From positions 1 to 39,021 of the forward strand of contig CAILQK010000404.1 in NCBI GenBank assembly GCA_903836265.1: a DNA stretch of 39,021 nt, written 5' to 3'. The notes beneath the pieces were generated by a model. That model was given only the letters and a program-made list of their open reading frames with translations, ran no database searches and was not told where the DNA came from. Positions 3,471-7,893 of this stretch are shown here, one piece after another; the first letter of the stretch is position 1; each line of letters begins with the position of its first letter. A program made the position numbers and the translations under genes. Source of the DNA: an uncultured Bacteroidota bacterium (GTDB taxonomy: Bacteria; Bacteroidota; Bacteroidia; Chitinophagales; Saprospiraceae).

Positions 3471-4487
3471 TCAGACGATATTTACTTCTCTTTCAAGTGC
3501 AATTCCGAATTTCTGTTGTACTGACTGGATAATCTGGTCGGACAGGTTTTTGACTTCCTGTCCTGTTGCTCCGCCGTAATTGACGAGCACCAGTGCCTGA
3601 CGGGCGTAACTGCCGGTATTACCCACTTTTTTGCCTTTCCAGCCACATTGCTCGATGAGCCAACCCGCCGGTATCTTTACCCGGTTGTCGGGCAGCGGGT
3701 AGGAAGGAACCTCGGGGTGAGACTGGCGTATCTTCAGTAAAACAGCCAGATCCGTTTCAGGGTTTTTGAAAAACGAGCCGCAATTACCGATTTCTGCCGG
3801 ATCAGGCAGCTTGGACCGGCGAATCTGGCACACTGCCCGACTGACATCGGCAATACCCGGATGATCAATACCCATGGTGACGAGCGTCCTGCTGATATCT
3901 CCGTAAGAAAGATTGAGTTTATGTCGGGGTCTGGTTAGTGAAACACGCACGGATACAATAATATATTTACCCTTCAGCTCCCGTTTGAAAACACTGTCGC
4001 GGTAACCGAACCCGCATTCCTTCAGGCTGAATGTCCTGATACGTCCGGTGGTGGTTTCCATCGCCTTCAGACTGACGAATACATCCTTGAGTTCCACGCC
4101 GTAGGCGCCAATATTCTGGACTGGCGCTGCTCCGACCGTACCCGGAATCAGGCTCATATTTTCAAGTCCGCCGAGGTTGTTTTCTACTGCCCAGGTGACG
4201 AGGGTGTGCCATTGTACGCCGCCGCCCACATCAATCCAGGCTCTTTTTGTGAAATTTCTTTCCAGCTTGATGTAGCTGATATCATTTTTGATGACCAGTC
4301 CCGCGACATCCCGGGTAAACAGCAAATTGCTGCCGCCTCCGATTACCAGCACAGGATGGATGCCTGACTGCAGGGCCTCCCGCATTTCAGCCTCCGAATG
4401 GACAGTTGTGAAATGAGCTGCCCTGACGTCAATGCCAAAGGTATTGTACGGGAGAAGCGAGACGTTATTTTGTATATTGACGGGCAT
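3471..4487 (-). CDS. murB: UDP-N-acetylenolpyruvoylglucosamine reductase MurB (type I)
   Basis: The 338-residue cytoplasmic flavoprotein catalyses the NADPH-dependent reduction that forms UDP-N-acetylmuramate, the second committed step of peptidoglycan precursor synthesis. FAD-binding motifs are clear: NTFGIDVRA (15-23), VIGGGSNLLFT (48-58) and IPGTVGAAPVQNIGAYGVE (114-132). The catalytic set expected from E. coli MurB is present: Arg163 in GYRDSVFK, Ser238 in GSFFKNP and a C-terminal Glu (Glu334, LEREVNIV). The length and the YRDSVFK loop fit the type I enzyme. Its ATG overlaps the stop of the upstream gene by one base (TAATG), suggesting coupled translation. Confidence 0.97.
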   Translation of the reverse strand: MPVNIQNNVSLLPYNTFGIDVRAAHFTTVHSEAEMREALQSGIHPVLVIGGGSNLLFTRDVAGLVIKNDISYIKLERNFTKRAWIDVGGGVQWHTLVTWAVENNLGGLENMSLIPGTVGAAPVQNIGAYGVELKDVFVSLKAMETTTGRIRTFSLKECGFGYRDSVFKRELKGKYIIVSVRVSLTRPRHKLNLSYGDISRTLVTMGIDHPGIADVSRAVCQIRRSKLPDPAEIGNCGSFFKNPETDLAVLLKIRQSHPEVPSYPLPDNRVKIPAGWLIEQCGWKGKKVGNTGSYARQALVLVNYGGATGQEVKNLSDQIIQSVQQKFGIALEREVNIV

Positions 4488-5638
4488 TATTCGAAGCAGC
4501 GCGACAGTTGCCGCAGCAGGTGAACAAACTGAATGTCATACTCTTCATATCCGCTTTCCCAGGTAATACGCACCTTGTCGAGATCAGAGCGGCGGATTTT
4601 TTTCCAGAGTGCATCTCCAATGGGATATTTGCCTCTGAATGTATATGACTGATTTTCATAATTTATAATTCCTTCATCATTAATACTATTGTATAATTCA
4701 AAAGAAGTTCCGTCCATGAACCAGAGTGTTGCGGGAGCGTCTTTGGGAAGTTTTCCGAACGATTTGCGCGGGTTGGGGTCAATTACGGTAAAGGTGAGCA
4801 GCAGTGTGGCTCGCGGGCCGATAGCCGACAGGGCAGCTTCACAGCGCACGTTTGGGCGGTCCTGGAGAAAACTCTTCAGAGGAGCAGGAGCATGGCGGAA
4901 CCACTCTGCCGGTGCTGTGCGGCGGTAAGGGGCGCCTGACAGCTCGTCGCGGGAGTTTTCCTCGAAATTACAGGGTACAGGGGGTGGATTGAGCATAACA
5001 TCGGCCCCGGGATTGTATTTTGCCACAGTCACCGCCACTGGAGTGGGGGTGGCCGGTTTTTCTGGTGGGGCTACTGTTACCGGAGCAGGCTCTGCCTGTT
5101 TTTCGGGTACTGTTTTCTTCTTTTCCGGTTTGACTGGCCGGGCGAGGGTCACTTTTGTTTCTTCTCCGGAGGGGCTGGTGAGTAATATGAGTTCATTCAC
5201 CGATTTCCAGAGTGCAGGCAGCATTTTTCGTTGTGCCGCCACGTCAAGAGCAGCACACTCGATGGCCTGATCCATCGTTTTTCCGGCATTTTTCAGTTGG
5301 CGGGCCAATTCTTTTTCCTTCAATTTCCACTCTTTCAGGCGGTTGCCGAGCGAGTCGAGTACAGACTTGTCGGCTGTTGAATCAGTCTTGATACGTACAA
5401 TCAGCGAGTCAAGGGCTTCCCGTTCCGAGACAACAGTTTGCAGACGCCCCTGGCCGGTGAGTTTCAGCGCTTCTGCCCGGGAGCCCAGCTGCTGTGTCCA
5501 GGCTACTACCCTGGCATTGTCGAGACTGTCCACCGGGGGCAGCGAATCGAGCCGTGTCTGGGCGTTCAGCGGCGATACTGCGCTGGTCATGACAGCATAC
5601 ATAATCAGGGATATGACCGGTAAATGATTTTTTTTCAT
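4487..5638 (-). CDS. Secreted coiled-coil protein of unknown function, first gene of the murB operon
   Basis: The 383-residue protein starts with a signal peptide (residues 1-26, ending SPLNAQ). A charged helical region follows, likely coiled coil (about 50-125, with repeated Leu/Asp/Lys such as LGNRLKEWKLKEKELARQL). Next is a Pro/Ala/Lys-rich linker (about 165-215) and a C-terminal globular region (about 270-383) with mixed strands and helices (TLWFMDGTSFELYNSIND). I do not recognise the family. A periplasmic location is inferred from the signal peptide, and the spacer composition suggests a tether reaching through the cell wall. The gene lies directly downstream of a TACTTTTG promoter box and its stop overlaps murB. 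Operon position hints at an envelope role but does not establish one. Confidence 0.8.
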   Translation of the reverse strand: MKKNHLPVISLIMYAVMTSAVSPLNAQTRLDSLPPVDSLDNARVVAWTQQLGSRAEALKLTGQGRLQTVVSEREALDSLIVRIKTDSTADKSVLDSLGNRLKEWKLKEKELARQLKNAGKTMDQAIECAALDVAAQRKMLPALWKSVNELILLTSPSGEETKVTLARPVKPEKKKTVPEKQAEPAPVTVAPPEKPATPTPVAVTVAKYNPGADVMLNPPPVPCNFEENSRDELSGAPYRRTAPAEWFRHAPAPLKSFLQDRPNVRCEAALSAIGPRATLLLTFTVIDPNPRKSFGKLPKDAPATLWFMDGTSFELYNSINDEGIINYENQSYTFRGKYPIGDALWKKIRRSDLDKVRITWESGYEEYDIQFVHLLRQLSRCFE

Positions 5639-5669
5639 TGCAGAACATTGAACAGGGTTAATATGTTCG

Positions 5670-5720
5670 TTTGAGATACAACCCCTACTTTCGCGGCAAA
5701 AGTAAGCCTATGTGGCCAAA
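5670..5720. promoter_or_regulatory. Symmetric divergent promoter region with overlapping -7 boxes
   Basis: The 110-bp gap between the murB operon (minus) and the prolyl oligopeptidase gene (plus) contains TACTTTCGCGGCAAAAGTA (5686-5704). On the plus strand this reads TACTTTCG (5686-5693, one mismatch to TAnnTTTG). On the minus strand it reads TACTTTTG (5704-5697, perfect). The two boxes are arms of one imperfect palindrome centred on 5695. TTTG at 5670-5673 and CAAA at 5717-5720 lie exactly symmetrically around the same centre. The spacing of 12 bp is shorter than the ~19-21 bp usual for a Bacteroidota -33 element, so the TTTG/CAAA pair may be an operator rather than -33 boxes. Confidence 0.55.
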
Positions 5721-5748
5721 CAGACATTAACCAATTTATCTTGAACAC

Positions 5749-7893
5749 ATGAAACTGAACCATTTCCTGATTTTTTTGAACGGGGTGCTGCTTCTGGGGG
5801 CCTGTCACACCCAGCAGAAAGCGACCGAGTCCCCGTCAGCAAACACAAAAAAAATAACAGTGAAGTACCCTGCAACGAGAAAAGACGACACAGTCACCGA
5901 CGATTACTTCCGGCGAAAAATAAGTGATCCATACCGCTGGCTCGAGGACGACCAGAGTGCCGAAACGAAGGCATGGGTGGTGGAACAGAATAAAGTTACC
6001 AATTCCTATCTGTCGCAGATACCCGACCGGGAAAAGTTCAAAAAGAGACTTTCAACGCTGTTTAATTACGAGCGTTACACACCTCCGTTTAAAGAGGGAG
6101 GCAAGTATTACTATTTCAAGAACGACGGACTGCAAAACCAGAGTATTCTTTACTCCCAGGAAAAACTCGACGGGCCGGCAACGCCTGTTCTGGATCCAAA
6201 CAAATTCAGTGCTGACGGCACGACTTCGCTTGGAGAGATGGACTTCTCCAGGGATGGTCGCTACCTGGCCTATTCCACATCAAAAGGTGGATCTGACTGG
6301 AGAACTATTGTGGTCAAGGATATGAAAACGGGAGAGATGCTACCCGATGTGATTGAATGGGTCAAGTTCAGCGGCATTTCGTGGAAGGGCAATGGCTTTT
6401 ACTACACCCGCTACCCGGAACCCCGCAAGGGCGATGAACTGAAGGCTGCCAACAAATTCGGCGCGGTTTACTACCACGCACTGGGTACCCCGCAATCGGC
6501 TGATCTGCTGGTTTACGACGACAAATCCAGTCCGGACCGTTCATTTGGCGGTGCAACAACTGAAGACGAGCGGTTTCTGATCATCAACGGCTGGGAGAGT
6601 ACCAGCGGCAACATGCTGGCAGTGAAAGATCTGAGCATGCGTTCGGATGTTTTTGTAACGATTGCCGGAAGTTTTGACAAGGATTTCAGTGTAGTGGACA
6701 ATATTGGCGACCAGTTGCTGATCCTGACCAATCACAATGCTCCCAACCAGCGTCTTATCCTGGTTGACCCTGCCAAACCGGCTGAGAAAGACTGGAAAAC
6801 ACTGATTGCTGAAGATGAAAACGACGTACTGCAGTCGGTGTCCGTCTGTGGCGGCAAGATACTGTGTACTTACCTGCACAATGCGGCCAGCAGTCTGCGC
6901 GCCTTCGAACTGAATGGCAAACTGATCCGGGAGGTGGCTTTGCCTGAAATTGGCTCCGTGAGTGGAGTGAGTGGGAAATCAGGCGATTCGCAGGCATTTT
7001 TCTCCTTCACCTCGTTTCTGCGCCCTTCCACGGTGTATTCACTGGACATGAATACGCTGAATATAACCGTGTTCAAAGCACCTGCACTTGATTTCAATCC
7101 GGAGCTTTACACTACTGAGCAGGTGTGGTATAACAGCAAGGACGGTACCCGGGTACCCATGTTCATCACACACCGCAGGGATATGCGGCTGGATGGCAGC
7201 AATCCTACCCTGCTTTACGGATATGGCGGTTTCAATATTTCCCTGACACCATCGTTCAGTGCCTCGCGGGCGGCCCTGCTGGAGAATAACGGAGTGTATG
7301 CGGTAGCCAACATACGCGGTGGTGGCGAGTTTGGTGAAAAATGGCATCGGGCGGGTACAAAATGCCAGAAGCAGAATGTCTTTGATGATTTTATCAGTGC
7401 AGCTGAATTTCTGATTGCACAGAAATACACCTCCTCCTCAAGACTGGCAATTCAGGGTGGTTCGAATGGCGGACTGCTCGTGGGCGCCTGCATGACTCAG
7501 CGCCCGGATCTGTACCGCGTCTGCTTCCCGCAGGTGGGCGTACTGGATATGCTCCGTTATCACCAGTTTACCATTGGTTATGCCTGGGCTACCGACTACG
7601 GTCGCAGCGACGTGCCGGAGGAGTTCAATTGCCTGATCAAATATTCACCGCTGCACAATGTGAAAGAAGTATCATACCCGGCTACCATGGTAACCACTGC
7701 TGATCACGACGACCGCGTGGTGCCGGCACACTCGTTCAAGTTCGCAGCAACGCTGCAGGAAAAGCATCAGGGCTCAAATCCGGTGTTAATCCGTATTGAG
7801 ACCAGCGCTGGCCACGGAGCAGGCAAGCCCACCGCAAAGATCATTGAGGAGGCTTCCGACATACTGGCATTTATGTTTTACAATATGAAATAA
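5749..7893 (+). CDS. Prolyl oligopeptidase family (S9A) lipoprotein
   Basis: The 714-residue serine peptidase hydrolyses short peptides after proline in characterised S9A relatives. The signal sequence ends in a lipobox (LLLGAC), so it is probably anchored to a membrane facing the periplasm or surface. The N-terminal part carries the typical DPYRWLEDD motif, followed by the seven-bladed propeller region to about residue 440. The C-terminal alpha/beta-hydrolase part has the catalytic triad: Ser572 in GGSNGGLL, Asp654 in DHDDRVVP and His689 in GHGAGKP. The length matches the family. It converges with the queD-family gene, with only 13 bp between the stops. Confidence 0.93.
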   Translation: MKLNHFLIFLNGVLLLGACHTQQKATESPSANTKKITVKYPATRKDDTVTDDYFRRKISDPYRWLEDDQSAETKAWVVEQNKVTNSYLSQIPDREKFKKRLSTLFNYERYTPPFKEGGKYYYFKNDGLQNQSILYSQEKLDGPATPVLDPNKFSADGTTSLGEMDFSRDGRYLAYSTSKGGSDWRTIVVKDMKTGEMLPDVIEWVKFSGISWKGNGFYYTRYPEPRKGDELKAANKFGAVYYHALGTPQSADLLVYDDKSSPDRSFGGATTEDERFLIINGWESTSGNMLAVKDLSMRSDVFVTIAGSFDKDFSVVDNIGDQLLILTNHNAPNQRLILVDPAKPAEKDWKTLIAEDENDVLQSVSVCGGKILCTYLHNAASSLRAFELNGKLIREVALPEIGSVSGVSGKSGDSQAFFSFTSFLRPSTVYSLDMNTLNITVFKAPALDFNPELYTTEQVWYNSKDGTRVPMFITHRRDMRLDGSNPTLLYGYGGFNISLTPSFSASRAALLENNGVYAVANIRGGGEFGEKWHRAGTKCQKQNVFDDFISAAEFLIAQKYTSSSRLAIQGGSNGGLLVGACMTQRPDLYRVCFPQVGVLDMLRYHQFTIGYAWATDYGRSDVPEEFNCLIKYSPLHNVKEVSYPATMVTTADHDDRVVPAHSFKFAATLQEKHQGSNPVLIRIETSAGHGAGKPTAKIIEEASDILAFMFYNMK

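Follow-up and report, generated by a model that had tools for sequence, protein, structure and literature searches.

A conserved pair of facing -7 boxes as a probable bidirectional promoter between a murB operon and a prolyl oligopeptidase gene in a genus of Saprospiraceae

The window analyzed here is a stretch of 39,021 nucleotides of DNA from an uncultured member of the Saprospiraceae (Bacteroidota), in which an intergenic region of 110 bp (5639-5748) separates two divergently oriented genes. On the minus strand is a 383-codon gene (4487-5638), which encodes a secreted protein of 383 aa that has no match in Pfam or NCBIfam. This gene heads an operon with murB (3471-4487, minus strand), which encodes UDP-N-acetylmuramate dehydrogenase (NF000755, above the cut-off), and the two genes overlap by 1 nt. 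On the plus strand is a gene for a prolyl oligopeptidase (S9) with a lipoprotein-like N-terminus (5749-7893; PF02897, PF00326). The murB-prmC gene run also includes a minus-strand gene (2098-2559) for a protein with an N-terminal membrane segment and a microbial-type ribonuclease domain (PF00545, barnase-like).

Of 42 genomes of the genus, which belongs to the family Saprospiraceae, 40 encode a homologue of the 383-aa protein. The aligned homologues within the genus are 31-44% identical to the window copy, a weak conservation indicating that the genus loci are far apart in evolutionary terms. This protein family co-occurs genus-wide with murB and the S9 peptidase, has homologues in ~90% of the sampled Saprospiraceae genomes, and is best conserved in its C-terminal 170 residues. 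The 383-aa gene and the peptidase gene are divergent in every genus locus in which both are visible (38/38), and in 15 of 28 loci retrieved from elsewhere in the family, outside the genus.

The intergenic region contains a 19-bp dyad, TACTTTCG-CGG-CAAAAGTA (5686-5704, centered on 5695), exactly where the first-pass annotation had placed an imperfect palindrome of this length. Its arms (5686-5694 and 5696-5704) are separated by 1 nt and are 89% complementary (8 of 9 positions), leaving one mismatched position. Each arm carries a sequence that resembles the Bacteroidota -7 element, for which the consensus in Flavobacterium johnsoniae is TAHHTTTG (PMC6847099): (i) the plus box, TACTTTCG (5686-5693, plus strand), is the predicted promoter element of the prolyl oligopeptidase gene, and fits the consensus at 5 of 6 fixed positions, its single departure being a C at position 7 (TTCG); and (ii) the minus box, TACTTTTG (5704-5697, minus strand), has the full consensus and is the predicted promoter element of the 383-aa gene and murB. 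The two boxes had originally been described as overlapping. They face each other across a gap of 3 bp (5694-5696) that holds the center of symmetry at 5695, and share no position; the overlap concerns the stretch predicted to melt and the footprints of the polymerase, not the boxes themselves.

The distances from the ends of the boxes to the two start codons, 55 and 58 bp, are within the range in which -7-like boxes are mainly found in a relative from the same genus (genome G006). In stretches of that genome, for which the genome-level statistics were obtained with a simple, home-made gene caller, -7-like boxes lie mostly 0-60 bp upstream of start codons, and among the -7-like octamers found there ahead of genes TACTTTTG is the most frequent (45 sense vs. 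20 antisense occurrences). An apparent AACAACCA motif upstream of the G006 genes was rejected, as it is largely simple repeat DNA.

In dinucleotide-shuffled versions of the intergenic region, the score of the dyad was never reached at a gap of 2-6 bp (0 of 4000), nor when all gaps from -2 to 40 were allowed (0 of 2000). The 4.33-Mb genome to which the window belongs has a single match to the strict pattern TACTTTYG-N0-12-CRAAAGTA and none to its reversed control. A weak terminator-like match overlies the dyad on the minus strand, which would speak for a chance palindrome or an RNA hairpin; on the other hand, the predicted RNA fold is no better than that of shuffled sequences (z 0.04), and a search against Rfam gave no match. 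An RNA element or terminator was rejected on these grounds. An E. coli-type sigma-70 promoter was likewise rejected, none being found within 5400-6000. The shuffles, together with the conservation of the dyad across the genus, leave a chance palindrome or a hairpin without function with a negligible probability, and the functionless chance palindrome is refuted by that conservation.

Conservation was assessed in 39 genus loci, which were oriented on the peptidase start codon and the upstream DNA of which was scanned with a -7 position weight matrix (PWM). In 27 of the 39 loci, the two boxes of the best facing pair are 2-6 bp apart. At this spacing 21 of 39 loci score at least 20, as compared with a shuffle rate of 0.0004 per region (0.04%), and the seven other gap bins combined supply one locus with such a score. 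Conservation of the palindrome among relatives, which had been proposed as a check, is borne out by the 22 of 39 loci that have two facing TAHHTTYG boxes at a gap of 2, 3, 5, or 6 bp; it is not borne out by the 14 loci that have only a degenerate version and the 3 that have none. On the peptidase tree, a gap of 3 bp occurs in lineages from the base of the genus onward, whereas a gap of 2 bp is found in one clade only and gaps of 5-6 bp in another, from which it follows that the arrangement has a long history in the genus and that the gap has changed only a few times. The mirror arrangement survives in most of the genus although the DNA around it is no longer recognizably similar. Selection has maintained both boxes, facing each other, throughout the genus, with the spacing drifting slightly. 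Facing boxes were not found in the 15 loci from other genera that have the same gene order, and the divergent order of the genes is therefore probably older than the mirror promoter.

The substitutions within the boxes were resolved position by position, using parsimony change counts over 26 genus loci. In the plus box there are no changes at T1, A2, T5, and T6, in contrast to 4 and 3 changes at the two n positions; position 7 has 5 changes (T/C/A) and G8 has 2, the G being absent in two loci. The flanking columns have 4-11 changes each, with an average of ~7 per column. The minus box displays a similar pattern, though it served as the anchor for choosing the loci and its invariance is partly by construction. 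A G is never found at the n positions of the boxes, in agreement with the TAHHTTTG of F. johnsoniae. Changes at the n positions, in combination with a drifting gap, make both boxes look like working -7 elements rather than parts of an operator with fixed spacing. The original proposal of two divergent, mutually overlapping promoters of the -7 type is supported in that both boxes are deeply conserved and change in the manner that such elements would.

The two boxes are not equally well preserved. In most loci the minus box is better kept than the plus box, and in most loci with a gap of 3 bp position 7 of the plus box is a C. Together with the full consensus of the minus box, this would suit a reading in which only the promoter on the murB side is real and the plus box is its conserved initial transcribed region. 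An initial transcribed sequence is unlikely to give no changes at T1, A2, T5, and T6 against 7 at the n positions, and the plus box has the full consensus in L023 and L032, where the gap is 5 and 6 bp. A single promoter facing murB is accordingly considered very unlikely. In two further loci, L015 and L028, the plus box upstream of the peptidase gene is TATTTTGC and TAATTTGC, respectively, shorter by one base. These plus boxes resemble the TAnnTTGY motif (SM5) of Flavobacterium psychrophilum, which has been assigned to an alternative sigma factor, and the sigma factor acting at this promoter may possibly have changed in the two loci.

As an inverted repeat midway between divergent genes, the dyad resembles the operators of dimeric regulators in such intergenic regions. 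A dimeric transcription factor could bind it, the resemblance to -7 elements then being incidental or partial. The complementarity of 8 of the 9 arm positions is consistent with such a reading, as are a few other near-identical dyads in relatives. In operators of this kind the half-sites would be expected to keep a fixed spacing across orthologous sites, whereas the half-site gap here is 2, 3, 5, or 6 bp within the genus, the n positions change independently in each box, and on either strand the substitutions conform to the -7 consensus. Moreover, the window's own genome has no second strict copy (one site in 4.33 Mb), and the facing pairs found elsewhere flank unrelated genes. No regulator was found among the neighboring genes examined, although a local regulator need not be linked. 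The earlier suggestion that a dimeric regulator reads the dyad is thus disfavored, because the half-site gap drifts from 2 to 6 bp, and it appears highly unlikely.

Considering the consensus, placement and conservation of the boxes, the site is very probably a bidirectional promoter for the housekeeping sigma-A of the Bacteroidota type, with its two -7 boxes facing across 3 bp. RNA polymerase bound in the plus orientation would produce the prolyl oligopeptidase mRNA, and polymerase bound in the minus orientation would produce the murB-side mRNA, which also encodes the 383-aa protein. In F. johnsoniae, 4-5 nt separate the -7 element from the transcription start (PMC6847099), and in F. psychrophilum the box is at -12 to -5 (PMC9723704). 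By analogy, transcription of the prolyl oligopeptidase gene would start at 5698-5699 (plus strand), giving a leader of ~50 nt, and that of the murB-side operon at 5691-5692 (minus strand), giving a leader of ~54 nt; we infer both the use of sigma-A and these start positions from the related bacteria. Each start would be inside or beside the opposite -7 box, so that both orientations would melt the same stretch of ~15 bp. From this geometry we infer that one polymerase at a time would occupy the site. At ordinary activity, the two transcripts would probably be independent products of alternating binding events, rather than the outputs of a switch.

When compared with known sigma-A promoters of Bacteroidota (TTTG/TAnnTTTG in Bacteroides fragilis; TAHHTTTG in F. 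johnsoniae), the two boxes fit the -7 element, including the n positions that are never G, and have the usual placement upstream of start codons. Unlike the usual promoters, they are interlocked head-on, the window has no -33 element at the usual distance, and the plus box has TTCG. The last of these speaks against the promoter reading, as the plus box has a C where F. johnsoniae has a nearly invariant T. With regard to the -33 element, the first-pass annotation had pointed to a TTTG (5670-5673, plus strand) and a CAAA (5717-5720; TTTG on the minus strand) equidistant from the center of the palindrome. Their placement is as described, each being 12 bp from its box and the pair symmetric about 5695. 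A role as -33 elements is not supported: a spacer of 12 is the wrong distance, and the symmetric pair is found in no relative. Among the relatives, a TTTG at spacer 12 is absent on the plus side, and on the minus side L005, the nearest relative, is the only one to have it. A TTTG at spacer 18-19 accompanies the minus promoter in L011, L026, L033, L143, and L156, but not in the window, where a TTTG at the usual -33 distance is absent on both sides and spacer 12 is the only one seen. The missing element weighs little against a promoter, because the -33 element of F. johnsoniae is weak and poorly defined (PMC6847099) and a survey of TTTG/TTG spacing in G006 revealed no clearly preferred distance.

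Warman et al. reportedly described bidirectional promoters in E. coli and other prokaryotes in 2021 (Nat Microbiol). In the E. coli class, a near-palindromic TATAAT is read on both strands, with starts that are mostly 18 bp apart and commonly also 10 or 23 bp apart. At such promoters in E. coli and Salmonella, a short core with pseudo-symmetry directs transcription both ways, and prokaryotic bidirectional promoters are defined by divergent starts 7-25 bp apart (Middlemiss et al. 2023, PMC10268837; Warman et al. 2026, PMC12825309). The present locus has such a pseudo-symmetric core, in the form of a conserved 19-bp imperfect palindrome with one -7 element per strand. Like the E. coli promoters, it would have its starts beside or inside the shared core and accept one polymerase orientation at a time, and the E. 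coli promoters too are found preferentially between divergent chromosomal genes. In contrast, TAnnTTTG is not self-complementary; instead of one -10 element shared by both strands there are two separate boxes, 3 bp apart in the window and facing across 2-6 bp in the genus, and the start separation predicted from the box positions is only ~6-8 bp. Since the box is not self-complementary, the site would be a variant of the Warman/Grainger class and not a plain member of it. A literature search returned no example of a bidirectional or overlapping divergent promoter in Bacteroidota, a result that is not proof of absence, as subscription papers were mostly outside its coverage. Bidirectional promoters have been described for the symmetric TATAAT, and the locus provides an evolutionarily supported case with a non-symmetric core element.

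The facing boxes could in principle form a coupled switch, in which occupancy in one orientation represses the other, the murB operon and the peptidase gene are expressed reciprocally, and the overlap is conserved for that purpose. The geometry makes simultaneous occupancy physically unlikely, the facing arrangement has been retained over deep divergence, and in E. coli strong activation in one direction can repress the other (PMC12825309). However, the five E. coli bidirectional promoters studied were not active enough at the basal level for polymerases to compete; one direction was repressed only when the other was strongly activated (PMC12825309). Neither a regulator gene nor a shared operator was found at the locus. 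Furthermore, two boxes that are both needed and already face each other would stay conserved without any coupling, and for this reason conservation alone is no proof of selection for coupling. Given the low basal activity in E. coli, the default would be two independent transcripts from one site, and a switch should not be assumed; we consider it unlikely. It is doubtful, too, that such sites make up a Bacteroidota-specific class, in which two non-symmetric -7 boxes would share one bubble and be selected for tying together the expression, or the expression noise, of a cell-wall operon and a surface peptidase. The natural spacing variants (2, 3, 5, and 6 bp) make polymerase competition directly testable by reporter assay.

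Facing boxes were also sought away from this locus. They are rare: of the 144 divergent intergenic regions in 1.6 Mb of G006, a single one has such a pair at a gap of 0-8 bp. With no general enrichment in that genome, the idea that divergent promoters commonly have facing boxes was rejected. Across the 42 genus genomes, the pattern TACTTTYG-N2-6-CRAAANTA is found at 83 distinct sites, 19 of which are at this locus, as compared with 24 hits for the reversed control. Order-wide, the excess over the control is weak when a single repeat family is left out of the count. Another genome of the order (G155; L237, L254-L258) contains ~12 perfect palindromes of the form TACTTTTG-N4-CAAAAGTA, mostly TACTTTTGGCTTCAAAAGTA. 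These represent a dispersed repeat family and not promoters of the present kind, because the copies that were read have near-identical flanks followed by TAATGAAATAATG-type repeats. Several other facing pairs in the genus separate divergent genes unrelated to the present ones. In two members, for instance, the same facing-box dyad has a thiolase gene on one side and an ABC transporter gene on the other (L154, position 3008; L159, position 2992).
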